The notes under the pieces: model-generated
Databases searched by the model: none
The model's input: only the letters and a program-made list of their open reading frames with translations
Told to the model about the DNA's origin: nothing
Position numbers and translations under genes: made by a program
Part shown: piece after piece, positions 52,473 to 56,226 of the stretch
Layout: each line of letters opens with the position of its first letter
Numbering within the stretch: the stretch's first letter is position 1
DNA from: Methylotenera sp.
Lineage (GTDB): Bacteria; Pseudomonadota; Gammaproteobacteria; Burkholderiales; Methylophilaceae
NCBI GenBank assembly: GCA_013141495.1
Contig: JABFQV010000002.1
Coordinates: 124,001 to 188,000, forward strand
Direction: 5' to 3'
Length of the DNA: 64,000 bases

Positions 52473-52857
52473 GTTGTTTTTGGCTTTAAATTTACGAGAT
52501 TTACTAAAATATAATAAAGTTTATCGTTTATTAGACGTTCATCAGCCAGGGTCCTTACAAATTTTTTTGGTGAAAATTTGATGCTTCATTAGCTGGTAAA
52601 CTAATTTTGTAACGATTTTTTTAAGGCTTATATTGCATGACGTGTGGTTGCCCTATATTCGAGAATAGTCCCATCTTGGTTTGTGGTAGTTACTTAATCA
52701 TACCATTTCAAGTAACAAGGCAAACGGCGAGTTTAGACTTGTCGCAGGATATGGTGAATGGGGAAGTTAAAAAATAACTTAAATATGTAAGAACTCAATT
52801 GGTGCTTCGTCAAATAGAACAGACTGTTTTAATAGCTTAACTTTAAAAGGTTCCTTC
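52473..52857. other. intergenic region between transferase cluster and glk remnant
   Basis: AT-rich. It must contain the promoter of the leftward transferase/arsM cluster. A 46-codon rightward ORF (52637-52777, MTCGCPIFENSPILVCGS) is present but has no good RBS and no recognisable similarity, so I do not call it. Confidence 0.4.
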
Positions 52858-53016
52858 ATGAAAATACTTGCAGCTGACATTGGCGGCACTAAAACAGAAT
52901 TGGCTATTTTCGATCTGGAACAGCTATCAGATGCCTCATACCTTGAACCCAACTTTGGTATGCGCTTTTTAAATCGCGACCAGAATGGATTTATAACTAT
53001 ATACATTAATATCTAA
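52858..53016 (+). pseudogene. truncated glucokinase (ROK/Glk) N-terminal fragment
   Basis: MKILAADIGGTKTELAIFDL is the ATP-binding N terminus of bacterial glucokinases (DIGGTKT phosphate-1 motif). The frame stays open for 52 codons, turns into unrelated AT-rich sequence around NGFITIYINI, and stops 45 bp before dif; the full enzyme is about 320-340 residues. An RBS (AAAAGG) is intact. No glucokinase continuation is found on the far side of the dif element, so the truncation is not simply the insertion seen today. Confidence 0.75.
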
Positions 53017-53061
53017 TACGTAGGATGAGTAGAATTATGAATACGTATAACTTAGGATTTA

Positions 53062-53089
53062 ATTTTACATAATATACATTATACGAAGT
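53062..53089 (-). other. dif site (XerCD recombination site), attL of integrated element
   Basis: Read on the minus strand: XerC arm ACTTCGTATAA, central TGTATA, XerD arm TTATGTAAAAT. This is very close to E. coli dif (GGTGCGCATAA - TGTATA - TTATGTTAAAT). The plus-strand parts are 53062-53072 (XerD arm), 53073-53078 (centre) and 53079-53089 (XerC arm). If chromosomal, it marks the replication terminus where XerCD/FtsK resolves dimers. Confidence 0.88.
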
Positions 53090-53101
53090 AGCATATATAA
53101 T
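53073..53101 (+). promoter_or_regulatory. putative promoter built into the dif site
   Basis: TATACA (53073-53078, the dif central hexamer, 4 of 6 to TTGACA) and TATAAT (53096-53101) are separated by exactly 17 bp. It would read into the first gene of the element with a leader of about 55 nt, and would be kept in the excised circle. Confidence 0.45.
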
Positions 53102-53161
53102 TTTGCGGAATAGTTATTTATTTTTAACCCTGCTTTTGGTGCATCCAAAAAGGAATGAAAA

Positions 53162-53428
53162 ATGGCAAATGCTACACCGCAAAATAAATACATTATCAAG
53201 CTCACACGTTCCCAGTTAGAGCTGCTGGAAAAAATGCTGTCTCAAGAAATTGCATTACTTGAGTCCGGCTATGCACATCCACATCCGCAAATATTAAAAC
53301 GCACGTTTGATGCGGTTTGGGAGCATCTGAAACCGTCCCCCGAAGAAAAGCTTAAGCGCATGCAAAGCTGGATTAAACAGATTTACGGCAAGCGCATAGC
53401 TGACGTTAATCTGGTTAAGGCGGCTTGA
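53162..53428 (+). CDS. hypothetical protein of dif element
   Basis: 88 residues, helical, slightly basic: TRSQLELLEKMLSQEIALLESGY followed by KRTFDAVWEHLKPSPEEKLKRMQSWIKQIYGKRIADVN. RBS AAGGAATG lies just before the ATG. Not recognised. First gene of the element; stop lies 2 bp before the next start. Confidence 0.72.
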   Translation: MANATPQNKYIIKLTRSQLELLEKMLSQEIALLESGYAHPHPQILKRTFDAVWEHLKPSPEEKLKRMQSWIKQIYGKRIADVNLVKAA

Positions 53429-53430
53429 TT

Positions 53431-53652
53431 ATGGTTACCGCTGAATCTAGGTTTAATCATGCTGCCGACCAATCTTCCAAATGTGAGCCTGTTAGCCTGC
53501 GCAGTTTTGCTGTTAGCACTGGCTTATCACTCGGCTTGCTCCGTAAATTCTGTAATCAAGGTCGTATCATTGGTGCCCGTAAACACGTTCTGACTAAACA
53601 ATGGTGGATTTACCCGCCCGCCAAAATTGTGCCTAGTCAATTACGCTGGTGA
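53431..53652 (+). CDS. small winged-helix DNA-binding protein of dif element
   Basis: 73 residues. SLRSFAVSTGLSLGLLRKFCNQGRIIGARKHVLTKQWWIYPPAKI has the form of a MerR/excisionase-type winged helix, with helix-turn-helix then a basic wing ending in WWIYPP. It may be a regulator or excision factor. I start at ATG 53431, preceded by AAGG; an in-frame TTG two codons earlier overlaps the previous stop. Its stop overlaps the next start as GTGA. Confidence 0.72.
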   Translation: MVTAESRFNHAADQSSKCEPVSLRSFAVSTGLSLGLLRKFCNQGRIIGARKHVLTKQWWIYPPAKIVPSQLRW

Positions 53653-54080
53653 AGCGTAAGAAATATAAGCGCAAGCCATACAAGCCCATTGATAGAGAAA
53701 AATTTAAGGAAGTTAGATTGATGAACAGATTGAGTGTTGAAGATGCTGCCAAGTTGCTTCAGGTGACCAGTAGAACAATAGCGCATTGGGAATGCGGCGC
53801 AACCCGCATCCCCTATTCCGCTTTCAAGCTACTGCGCTGCCTTGCCAATGGTGCATTGTTGCCTTCGGCTTGGAAAGGTTGGGTAATCAAAGGTGACACC
53901 CTTTGGTCGCCCGTGGGAAGACCGTTCCGACAACATGAACTCACCTACATTTCTCATTACTTTACGATGGCGCGTTACTGGCAAGCGGATTATGAACGCC
54001 GAAATACAAAACGGCAAGCGGCGCAAGTAATCGACTTTAAACCGCCTTTGCGCTTGGTGTTAGGGGGTAAGCATGACTAA
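53649..54080 (+). CDS. XafT-like helix-turn-helix Xer activation factor (DUF3653-type phage protein)
   Basis: 143 residues. A basic N terminus (KRKKYKRKPYKPIDREKFKEVRL) leads into a Cro/Xre-like HTH: VRLMNRLSVEDAAKLLQVTSRTIAHWECGATRIPYSAFKLLRCL (about 22-66). Then comes LPSAWKGWVIKGDTLWSPVGRPFRQHELTYISHYFTMARYW (about 72-113), the Trp/Gly-rich region I associate with the VC1465/XafT family and the phage Cf1c-type DUF3653 proteins. XafT lets TLC-phi recombine at dif without FtsK. The GTG start overlaps the previous stop and keeps HTH helix 1; an ATG at 53721 has a better RBS (AAGGAAG) but would cut helix 1. Assignment is by memory of the family, not a search. Confidence 0.72.
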   Translation: MKRKKYKRKPYKPIDREKFKEVRLMNRLSVEDAAKLLQVTSRTIAHWECGATRIPYSAFKLLRCLANGALLPSAWKGWVIKGDTLWSPVGRPFRQHELTYISHYFTMARYWQADYERRNTKRQAAQVIDFKPPLRLVLGGKHD

Positions 54081-54374
54081 TTGCCTAAAAACGCCTCAAA
54101 GCGCCTTAAATGGTTTTATGGGGTATGGGGGAACTCGGTTCCCCCATGTAGACCAGCGCGCTTTCGTGCTTAGCATTAAAAATTCGCGTGCTTTGACCTG
54201 GCGTTTGACTTCAATGGTTATTGCGCGCCATGCAGACGGTTTTAAGGTTTTGGGGTTGGGTTTAAAGTGGTGTGCGTGTCTTATAACATGCACACTTCTT
54301 GCCCCACGGAGCAAAACATGTTTACCTGCAATTCCTTTGTATCCGTTGCCAGTCTTAGCTCTCAGGGGTTTCTT
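54081..54374. other. non-coding centre of the dif element with strong hairpins
   Basis: Contains a perfect 10-bp hairpin ATGGGGGAAC - TCG - GTTCCCCCAT at 54125-54147 and a 9-bp hairpin GTGTGCGTG / CATGCACAC (one G-T) at 54270-54295. Open frames here lack RBS and coding character. In a small circular or filamentous-phage-like element such a region is the natural place for a replication origin, packaging signal or terminator. Confidence 0.5.
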
Positions 54375-54698
54375 ATGCTGAAAAACTATTCCGCCTCAAA
54401 CTATGAAGCACCAAAACCGACAAGGGACGGTGAGTTCATGCTGGATGGCAAACTGGTTGCAGTCAATGTGGACTTGGCTTCCAAGCTGTTTCACACCTCA
54501 ACGCGGCGTGTCCGTCAGATGCTGATTGATGGGAAATTGAAAGGCACTAAGTTTGGCAAGCTGTGGCGTATCAATTACCCGTTCCAAATCGTCATGGGTA
54601 AACGCGGACCAATGCTTGGTTATAACCGATACAGCAAGCGTGTAAAAAGTCGGAACATTAACGATTTTGAAAACTCCACGTTTACGAAGGGAACATGA
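54375..54698 (+). CDS. excisionase-like winged-helix protein of dif element
   Basis: 107 residues from the ATG preceded by AGGGG. The centre VNVDLASKLFHTSTRRVRQMLIDGKLKGTKFGKLWRINY (about 30-68) is a MerR/Xis-type DNA-binding domain: helix-turn-helix plus the 'GTKFGKLWRI' wing seen in excisionase-family proteins. The C terminus is basic. Earlier in-frame starts reach into the hairpin region and lack an RBS. Excision or copy control is the likely role. Confidence 0.75.
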   Translation: MLKNYSASNYEAPKPTRDGEFMLDGKLVAVNVDLASKLFHTSTRRVRQMLIDGKLKGTKFGKLWRINYPFQIVMGKRGPMLGYNRYSKRVKSRNINDFENSTFTKGT

Positions 54699-54799
54699 AA
54701 ATCTTTCAACGGCTGATTACCAAACCAGACAATTTAAAAATTAAGGCACCAAAAGCACACAAATTGAATTTGTATTCCTATACATTATACGAAGTATAG
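54695..54799 (+). CDS. 34-codon ORF running across the right attachment site
   Basis: ATG overlaps the previous stop as ATGA and follows RBS GAAGGGA. The frame (MKIFQRLITKPDNLKIKAPK...) enters the degenerate XerD arm and dif centre and stops at TAG directly after the XerC arm. In the excised circle the same frame would read on past the attP junction for about 40 more codons with a hydrophobic stretch (SYLFLTLLL). So integration may truncate a small membrane peptide; coding status is unproven. Confidence 0.4.
   Translation: MKIFQRLITKPDNLKIKAPKAHKLNLYSYTLYEV
54768..54795 (-). other. degenerate dif copy, attR of integrated element
   Basis: Plus strand: ATTTGTATTCC (54768-54778, poor XerD arm), TATACA (54779-54784) and TTATACGAAGT (54785-54795, XerC arm identical to the left copy). 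The lost XerD consensus resembles TLC-phi attP. Confidence 0.8.
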
Positions 54800-54945
54800 G
54801 TAGTTCCAATTATGTTGCATTTATCTGTGACTTTACATTAGGAACCTAGATGCTCGTTGCAAGCAACGCTCAATTACCGCCTGCTGTTTGATGGCATAAA
54901 ATTAACGGTGCTTTATGAATCTTATTTATTATCACTGTAGCTAGT

Positions 54946-54975
54946 AACGCCTTTACTGCTAAAGGCGTTTTTATT
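54946..54975 (+). terminator. rightward intrinsic terminator
   Basis: AACGCCTTTA - CTGC - TAAAGGCGTT followed by T-rich sequence. No intact rightward gene precedes it other than the dif element, so it may be the surviving end of a gene lost next to dif. Confidence 0.75.
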
Positions 54976-55023
54976 TAGACTGTTTGTTTGTAAATGGTGA
55001 TTGAGTATCTGGAGCGCTAACTC

Positions 55024-56226
55024 TTAACTTAGTGCACGTTCAATACGATCCAACGCATTTTTAAGATTATCCATTGATGTTGCAAATGAAATGCGGAAGT
55101 ATCCCTCTGCGCCAAAGGCTGAGCCTGGCACTACTGCCACATCAAATGATTCTAGTAAGTATTCAGCTAAAGCCATATCTGTAGCTACTTTTATTTTGCC
55201 AGCTTTAAATAGCTTATCAATCGCAGCGCGGGCATCAGGAAATGCGTAAAATGCTCCGCCGGCCATTAGGCAACTTAACCCCGGCATGGTGTTAAAGCGG
55301 TTAACTACATAAATGTGACGTTCTTTAAATGCCGTTACCATTGGGGTGATGCAATCTTGCGAGCCTTCTAGCGCGGCTTGTGCTGCCACTTGCGAAATGG
55401 AGGTGGCGTTGCTGGTAGATTGCGATTGCAAAATCTCCATGGCTTTAATAATGTAAGCCGGACCTGCGGCATAGCCAATGCGCCAACCGGTCATTGAGTA
55501 CGCTTTAGAAACGCCGTTGAGCACAATACAACGATCCTTAAGCGCTGGGGTAGCGTTAAGAATGTTATAAAACTTATCACCTGTTAAATTCACGTGTTCG
55601 TACATGTCATCTGTGGCGACCAGTACATGTGGATGTTTAAGTAACACTTCGCCCAAGGCATGCAACTCAGCCAAGCTATACACCGCACCCGTTGGGTTAG
55701 ATGGTGAGTTGATCATAAAGATTTTAGTATTAGGCGTAATCGCCGCTTCTAACTGTGCTGGCAAAAGCTTAAAGCCTTGCTCAATGCCACATTGTATAAT
55801 CACCGGTGTCGCTTCGGCGACCAGCGCAATATCTGCGTAAGAGACCCAATAAGGTGCGGGAATAATAACTTCATCACCTTTATTAAGCACCGCTAGGCAT
55901 AGATTAAAGATGGTTTGCTTGCCACCCACGCCTACAATCACTTCATTGAGTGCGTAATCAAAGCCATTTTCATTCTTGAATTTTGCAACAATGGCTTTTT
56001 TAAGACCTGGAATGCCAGCCACCGGCGTATATTTGGTAAAACCAGCATCAATAGCTGCTTTTGCCGCATCTTTAATGTGCTGAGGCGTATCAAAATCCGG
56101 CTCACCAGCTGCTAGGCCAATAATATCGCGGCCTTCCGCTTTATATTTACCAGCTTTTGCGGTAATCGCAAGCGTTGGAGATTCTTTAATAGATAAAACG
56201 CGCTGTGATAGTACGGAGTGTGACAA
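55024..56226 (-). CDS. aspC: aspartate aminotransferase family, class I PLP enzyme
   Basis: 400 residues, normal for bacterial class I (AspAT Ib) enzymes. GLAAGEPDFDTPQHIKDAA near residue 37, SNPTGAVYS near residue 175 (Asn binding PLP), and the PLP Lys in NGVSKAYSMTGWRIGYAAG near 238, with the Arg substrate clamp in GYFRISFATS near 380. Aspartate/glutamate transamination is likely, but prephenate aminotransferase activity is also known in this branch. Monocistronic. Confidence 0.9.
   Translation of the reverse strand: MSHSVLSQRVLSIKESPTLAITAKAGKYKAEGRDIIGLAAGEPDFDTPQHIKDAAKAAIDAGFTKYTPVAGIPGLKKAIVAKFKNENGFDYALNEVIVGVGGKQTIFNLCLAVLNKGDEVIIPAPYWVSYADIALVAEATPVIIQCGIEQGFKLLPAQLEAAITPNTKIFMINSPSNPTGAVYSLAELHALGEVLLKHPHVLVATDDMYEHVNLTGDKFYNILNATPALKDRCIVLNGVSKAYSMTGWRIGYAAGPAYIIKAMEILQSQSTSNATSISQVAAQAALEGSQDCITPMVTAFKERHIYVVNRFNTMPGLSCLMAGGAFYAFPDARAAIDKLFKAGKIKVATDMALAEYLLESFDVAVVPGSAFGAEGYFRISFATSMDNLKNALDRIERALS

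Follow-up and report, generated by a model that had tools for sequence, protein, structure and literature searches.

To our knowledge, only a few satellites of filamentous phages have been described, chiefly from Vibrio cholerae. Here we describe a stretch of 64,000 nucleotides from a Methylotenera sp. of the family Methylophilaceae (the window, by which we mean this whole stretch), in which the chromosomal dif site and a second, partial copy of it bound a unit of 1,706 bp, and we consider it likely that this unit is a minimal, helper-dependent inovirus satellite that integrated at dif via XerC/XerD and an XafT-type factor. The basis of this reading is the pair of att sites, the exact insertion of such units in relatives, the membership of one of its proteins in the XafT family and the cis sequences that it has in common with inoviruses.

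The closest described system is TLC-phi, which integrates reversibly at dif by an attP composed of a XerC arm and centre with a degenerate XerD arm and carries its own replication module (PMC4246890), of which cri is a marker (PMC13142030), and which encodes the factor XafT (PMC9765430). The window unit resembles it in attP type, in encoding a factor of the XafT family and in being without morphogenesis genes. However, no replication protein family was recognised in the window unit, inovirus-like cis sequences take the place of the rep gene, and units of this kind span 1.4-2.7 kb whereas TLC-phi is about 4.7 kb long. The initial annotation had seen the TLC-phi design in this locus; that likeness stands for the attP type and the XafT-family gene and fails for the replication module, which has no counterpart here, and therefore the unit is no homologue of TLC-phi as a whole.

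RS1 is likewise a small element found beside a filamentous phage at dif; it depends on its helper's virion proteins and carries the helper replication genes rstA/rstB. The window unit would share with it the habit of a small helper-dependent dif element, but has no recognised Rep family in the place of rstA/rstB and has an attP of the TLC type, whereas RS1 is tabulated among the elements of the CTX-phi class, whose attP is folded single-stranded DNA (PMC4246890). The same table places phi-Lf and Cf1c in the TLC-phi class and does not list XacF1 of Xanthomonas, which is described as integrated at dif by XerC/D with its attP inside a regulator gene (PMC5666396). A regulator gene also contains the right core of the phage on contig G104 discussed below. 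The Xanthomonas filamentous phages Cf, phi-Lf and XacF1 differ from the window unit in being complete phages (7,325 nt in XacF1) and no satellites. A filamentous phage of the same bacterial family is the Methylophilaceae inovirus RSA-MFP1, a full phage of 5,750 bp; the word satellite is absent from the text that describes it (PMC13059738). Being a full phage, RSA-MFP1 differs from the window unit and represents a candidate kind of helper.

In the literature covered, which was mainly open-access and had most subscription journals outside it, we found neither units from Methylophilaceae nor dif satellites without a rep gene, in keeping with the initial annotation, to whose author no such element was known from a methylotrophic betaproteobacterium. 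According to the abstract of a 2019 PNAS study on XafT, elements encoding this factor are reportedly widespread in gamma- and betaproteobacteria. XafT-encoding elements as such are thus already known, and it is the variant without rep that is apparently new.

The att sites at dif and their empty counterparts

The left site, attL (window positions 53062-53089, forward strand), is an intact dif of the form ATTTTACATAA-TATACA-TTATACGAAGT, with the XerD arm at 53062-53072, the centre at 53073-53078 and the XerC arm at 53079-53089 (we label the arms after the E. coli dif, which we take as the reference). The right site, attR (54768-54795, forward strand), reads ATTTGTATTCC-TATACA-TTATACGAAGT; it retains the centre (54779-54784) and the host XerC arm (54785-54795), and its XerD arm (54768-54778) is degenerate, differing at 6 of 10 scored positions. 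Measured from centre to centre, the integrated element covers 53073-54778 on the forward strand, a delimitation based on the att sites and on the exact insertion seen in four relatives. The string common to both sites, TATACATTATACGAAGTA, has just two occurrences in the window, at 53073-53090 and at 54779-54796 (the mean for shuffled versions of it was 0.03 matches with up to 3 mismatches allowed), and the 17-base core occurs at two places in the genome, both of them window sites, with none further at up to 2 mismatches. The two bounding copies, their exact common string and the loss of the XerD arm on the right were all claims of the initial annotation, and all of them hold. The attP type of the window unit, with the XerC arm and centre of dif and a degenerate XerD arm, is that of TLC-phi, and in 12 other complete units of the family the XerD arm differs at 5-8 of 10 positions.

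A search with the XerD arm plus centre gave 0 mismatches at one place (contig position 177064, window position 53064) and 3 mismatches at four other places. Allowing 3 or fewer mismatches, we find a dif of the window form in 81 of the 100 family genomes surveyed, the window's own genome counted. The cumulative GC skew of the 435-kb contig, on which alone it was computed (the genome comprises 2.49 Mb in 20 contigs), has its maximum at 169,121, and dif, at 177,062, is 8 kb away, which agrees with the placement of dif in the initial annotation. Just short of dif, a gene start of about 49 codons (52858-53006), taken by eye for ROK/glucokinase, comes to a stop; similar starts are present at L092 and L081, and the gene may have been truncated by an older event at dif.

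Among 60 loci around dif or phages, 55 have a single dif and no further half-site at up to 1 mismatch, and in 47 of these 55 the sequence extends for 3 kb or more on the side of the XerC arm. All 12 carriers of a complete unit were compared with the 55 one-dif loci, with both flanks aligned, and for 4 of the 12 an empty partner aligned on both flanks, the insertion being exact in each: G099 against empty G075 (flanks 95.8 and 95.9% identical), G027 against G084 (95.5 and 95.9%), G076 against G094 (76 and 74%) and G169 against G060 (78 and 82%, with the left alignment ending 151 bp before the core). G084 keeps a left-end element scar at its dif, and is therefore free of a full unit rather than a virgin site. 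In G099, the host XerC arm TTATGCGAATA stands to the right of the element and also in the empty G075, and a different arm, TTATACGAAAT, stands on the left, so that the element brought the left XerC arm with it. This pattern supports what would be expected of an attP with a XerC arm and without a XerD arm. The proposal that a circle with an attP lacking the XerD arm was inserted here thus gains support from the four relatives and from the arms of G099. The empty dif that the initial annotation had proposed to look for in relatives exists for these four carriers, and the remaining eight, the window included, have no two-flank empty partner among the 55 loci.

An XafT-type gene and a family of related units

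The XafT-type gene, the unit family, the tandem array and the inovirus-type cis sequences go beyond the initial annotation. ORF3 (53649-54080, forward strand; 143 aa, GTG start) joins a helix-turn-helix (HTH) to DUF3653. Over residues 19-124 it matches the NCBIfam model NF040522, "VC1465 family Xer recombination activation factor", with 87.6 bits against a curated cut-off of 70 (E 5.5e-25), a comparison given for the window member of the ORF3 alignment only, and it matches PF12375 (DUF3653) with 34.4 bits against a cut-off of 22.4. NF040522 is matched at E <= 1e-5 by all 24 members of the alignment. VC1465 is presumably the XafT of TLC-phi, in agreement with the name of the model. By family membership ORF3 is an XafT-type factor, with a putative role in activating XerD. 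Comparison with solved structures by sequence gave no match at E below 0.1, and a fold search gave none at E <= 0.001, with HTH proteins best; the structure model (predicted template modelling score 0.43) was left out of the function assignment. In a tblastn search, 1 record of the phage collection and 6 of the plasmid collection gave partial matches of less than 60% identity, and no direct relative was found among them.

An ORF3 profile of seven rows matched 23 of 187 family genomes (its own counted) at E <= 1e-8. Complete units, consisting of an intact dif, an ORF3-type gene in the same orientation and a half-site without XerD arm over 1,433-2,716 bp, are present in 12 of the 23 (G000, G014, G025, G027, G039, G068, G076, G099, G156, G167, G169 and G176). 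In six genomes (G083, G090, G095, G146, G168 and G174) the contig that holds the gene has just one of the two ends, since the contig breaks off or the copy has decayed or moved, and four (G001, G084, G131 and G166) have weak profile matches without surrounding sites; the site survey left out G150 and the second match of G168. Conversely, when the 187 genomes were scanned with the exact core, at least 11 had two cores on one strand at a spacing below 3 kb, and among the matches listed an ORF3-type gene is present in 11 of 11. G176 (the same record as L033) holds a tandem array of two units that are 77% alike over 943 bp, and ORF content is similar among units about 77-85% alike. Among 399 genomes sampled from the order, 9 matched the profile at E <= 1e-12, 8 of them outside the family, and 5 of these 8 have a site to either side of the gene, not more than 2.1 kb away. 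The other three have, respectively, only the right site (at a contig end), a dif 5.2 kb away and no site. In G465 of this sample the left site itself lacks the XerD arm, in the manner of an array.

Several further observations concern individual units. The two largest, in G027 and G068, have extra genes (L069:13417-14415 and L071:5254-5892; 332 and 212 aa, no NCBIfam match) that are possible cargo. In G146 (Methylotenera mobilis 13; L034/L077) a unit with the right half-site alone lies 70 kb from the genome's dif and adjoins large transposase-like genes, TnsB-like by eye. At L101, L098, L127 and L094, left-end scars of 35-115 bp, traces of lost copies, stand beside an intact dif where a complete unit is absent.

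The window unit has four credible ORFs, all on the forward strand. Apart from ORF3 these are ORF1 (53162-53428, 88 aa), which has a similar ORF in related units and for which no convincing family was found; ORF2 (53431-53652, 73 aa), with a weak Cox/excisionase-like HTH (PHROG 575, E 0.0095); and ORF5 (54375-54698, 107 aa), with an excisionase-like HTH (TIGR01764, E 5.8e-5, under the cut-off). The last two probably encode regulators or directionality factors. A candidate ORF4 (54073-54381) is treated as doubtful because it overlaps the hairpins described below and varies among relatives. Family scans of the unit's ORFs recognised no integrase, Rep, coat or Zot family. With dif at one end, a dif-like att site at the other and no integrase of its own, a lack that the initial annotation had already pointed out, the unit has the make-up of an integrative mobile element exploiting Xer (IMEX), and in being without coat, Zot and other morphogenesis genes it has that of an inovirus satellite.

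Rfam gave 0 matches in 52500-55100, and promoter and terminator scans of the unit were close to chance level. Just inward of the left end (53073-53114) lie a TATAAT box and the conserved motif GCGGAATAGT (53105-53114, forward strand), about 15 bp inward of the XerC arm; the motif is present in window-type units and, as scars beside dif, in a few non-carrier genomes. From TATAAT, the dif centre is as far away as a -35 box would be, so that dif itself may be part of the operon promoter. Toward the other end (54695-54798), window-type units have a conserved block, TGAAAATCTTTCAACGGCTGATTACC, about 60 bp 5' of the right site, which begins a frame of about 34 codons reading through the att core.

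Inovirus-like cis sequences

Folded as single-stranded DNA, the region between ORF3 and ORF5 is stabler than all of 200 shuffles. It contains hairpin 1, ATGGGGGAACTCGGTTCCCCCAT (54125-54147, forward strand), and hairpin 2, GTGTGCGTGTCTTATAACATGCACAC (54270-54295, forward strand), which at up to 3 mismatches occurs at three places in the 187 genomes, namely the window unit, one G176 unit and contig C128 of G168. The last of these, one base off the window hairpin, stands 45 bp 5' of a Phage_CRI rep gene in an inovirus that begins at an intact dif and whose further genes include regulator, DNA-binding and coat functions (the contig is without zot), and the 49 bp around hairpin 2 are 84% identical to this inovirus (E 1.8e-7). 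Judged by its sequence and place, hairpin 2 is a candidate replication origin.

A bipartite motif, CCCCATGTAGAC ... GCAGAC (54142-54237, forward strand), is common to the window unit and the region after zot in two inoviruses. In exact form it is found in 2 of the 187 genomes, in the window unit and on contig C206 of G168, about 140 bp past the zot stop; in the IMG/VR contig G104 it is found in a unit and about 20 bp past the zot of the adjoining phage. By a uniform count, about 0.7 occurrences of the motif are expected in the 187 genomes; it has 27 IMG/VR matches, mostly probably due to chance, of which G104 alone was examined further, and it counts as evidence because of its place after zot. 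The inovirus that adjoins the unit in G104 encodes Zot, a rolling-circle Rep, DUF2523 and a regulator; an att core (a half-site) separates the two, and a further core lies at each end of the contig. In this phage the right core lacks the XerD arm and 0 of 9 proteins match the XafT family, on account of which the satellite may supply this inovirus with the factor, although that the phage uses it is speculation. The link of the G104 phage to the window is by the bipartite motif; a 29-bp match between the window and "G104ph" (93%) plays no part in it, as it is located in the G104 unit and not in the phage.

Other classes of unit match other inoviruses. The units of G014, G076 and G169 have an inverted repeat in common with inoviruses G152 and G018, the G152 repeat being identical over 28-29 bp in G014 and G076, and the G152 phage apparently begins at dif. 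The units of G027 and G068 have TTTATATTACGGACACAT in common with several of G071, G047, G017, G062 and G104, and a unit of another class than the window's matches inovirus G071 with 97% identity over 29 bp. Exact IMG/VR scans for these two repeats returned 3 contigs, 3 of 3 with Zot and a Rep. The window unit, too, carries cis sequences of the kind found in possible helper phages, with a putative role as origin or in packaging. At L115, L116, L117 and L222, other inoviruses have their zot genes on the side of dif where the XerD arm lies; in two of these loci (G047 and G017) the motif TTTATATTACGGACACA is present as two copies 6.9 kb apart, suggesting that these phages integrate at another site or by another mechanism.

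For a control comparison, 14 units were searched by BLAST against two sets of loci, 14 with zot (152,629 bp in all) and 50 as controls (819,300 bp), the latter being 50 of the 55 one-dif loci after five with a phage or a decayed element had been excluded beforehand. High-scoring segment pairs (HSPs) numbered 18 in zot loci vs 14 in control loci at E <= 1e-3, and 8 vs 14 at 1e-5. The 14 control HSPs comprised 12 left-end scars beside dif and 2 in an inovirus at L108, with 0 in ordinary sequence; because of these two, which include the window's hairpin 2, L108 is not a phage-free control. The phage link of the window unit consists in hairpin 2 in L108 (49 bp, 84%, E 1.8e-7) plus the bipartite motif.

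A satellite or another kind of dif element

How would such a satellite work? Its circular form would have a single attP, consisting of the degenerate XerD arm, the TATACA centre and the XerC arm, and the ORF3 protein would activate host XerD, with XerC/XerD recombining attP and dif without FtsK, so that the left site would be a complete dif and the right one would lack the XerD arm. We infer that the unit is excised as a circle, depends on a helper and is packaged: by analogy with TLC-phi, the circle would be formed by XerC/XerD, with XerD acting first, under the control of ORF3, and an inovirus would replicate and package it through the origin and control sequences that the unit imitates.

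Several results weigh against this proposal. No free circle or virion DNA was seen, and the G104 contig, although its ends repeat 17 bp, is no proof of a circle, since trimming may have produced the repeat. Zot has no match at E <= 1e-3 in the unit's own genome and is present in 1 of 18 dif-linked carrier genomes (G168), so that a resident helper is rare. Matches in the zot loci at E <= 1e-3 involve 6 of the 14 units, the window unit not among them; exact hairpin 2 has no match in IMG/VR; and it is by inference only that C128 and C206 of G168 make up one phage. No empty allele of the window's own locus was found among the 55 loci, and the closest genome there, G174 (93% in the flanking aminotransferase), has a different, decayed element, whose copy of the XafT-type gene is apparently interrupted, by eye, by a transposase gene.

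Could the unit, then, be an XafT-type IMEX at dif and no phage satellite, one that moves by transformation or by integrating beside other elements and whose hairpins are remnants of an ancestral phage? The absence of Zot from its own genome and from 17 of 18 dif-linked carriers would fit such an element, as would the lack of packaging evidence. However, the repeats are specific to lineages and have counterparts in present inoviruses, different ones for three unit classes, whereas a mere relic would be expected to lose its phage-like repeats, and we regard this explanation as unlikely. It is improbable that the unit is a degenerate prophage, an inovirus stripped of its replication and coat genes and now fixed: its small size, the decayed copy in G174 and the left-end scars (L101, L098, L127 and L094) speak for this, but a similar ORF content recurs in units about 77-85% alike, in the tandem array and in other families, the XafT family is matched by 0 of 9 proteins of the G104 phage, and the inovirus contigs G168:C128, G168:C206 and G152:C32 have no ORF3-profile match at E <= 1e-8. 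That phage and unit of G104 form one 7.8-kb circle, of which the unit is an accessory cassette, would agree with a contig that both starts and ends in an att core; yet an att core separates the two, and in the ORF lists of the units of the 12 family genomes we noticed neither a phage structural gene nor a Rep gene between the sites (family scans covered the window ORFs and the two cargo genes, the other units being covered by these lists), which makes a cassette very improbable. A second dif-like sequence arisen by chance or duplication, in whose favour nothing was found, is hardly credible in view of the shuffle expectation of 0.03, the empty sites in relatives and the XafT-type gene in 11 of 11 two-core genomes among the matches listed.

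The satellite reading of the window unit thus remains the one that we favor, and it can tentatively be extended, at somewhat less than even confidence, to a widespread group of dif satellites of 1.4-2.7 kb that have neither replicase nor coat genes, carry an XafT-type factor and origin hairpins matched to their helpers, and may supply the helper's integration factor. If the satellite reading is true, these units are a satellite family in environmental bacteria, outside a pathogen, and XafT-type integration, the borrowing of phage origins and the exchange between satellite and helper would be open to study beyond pathogens. Because the unit classes are matched by sequence to inovirus lineages, helper specificity is directly testable. 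Units this small would also help toward defining the lower size limit of an integrating phage satellite.

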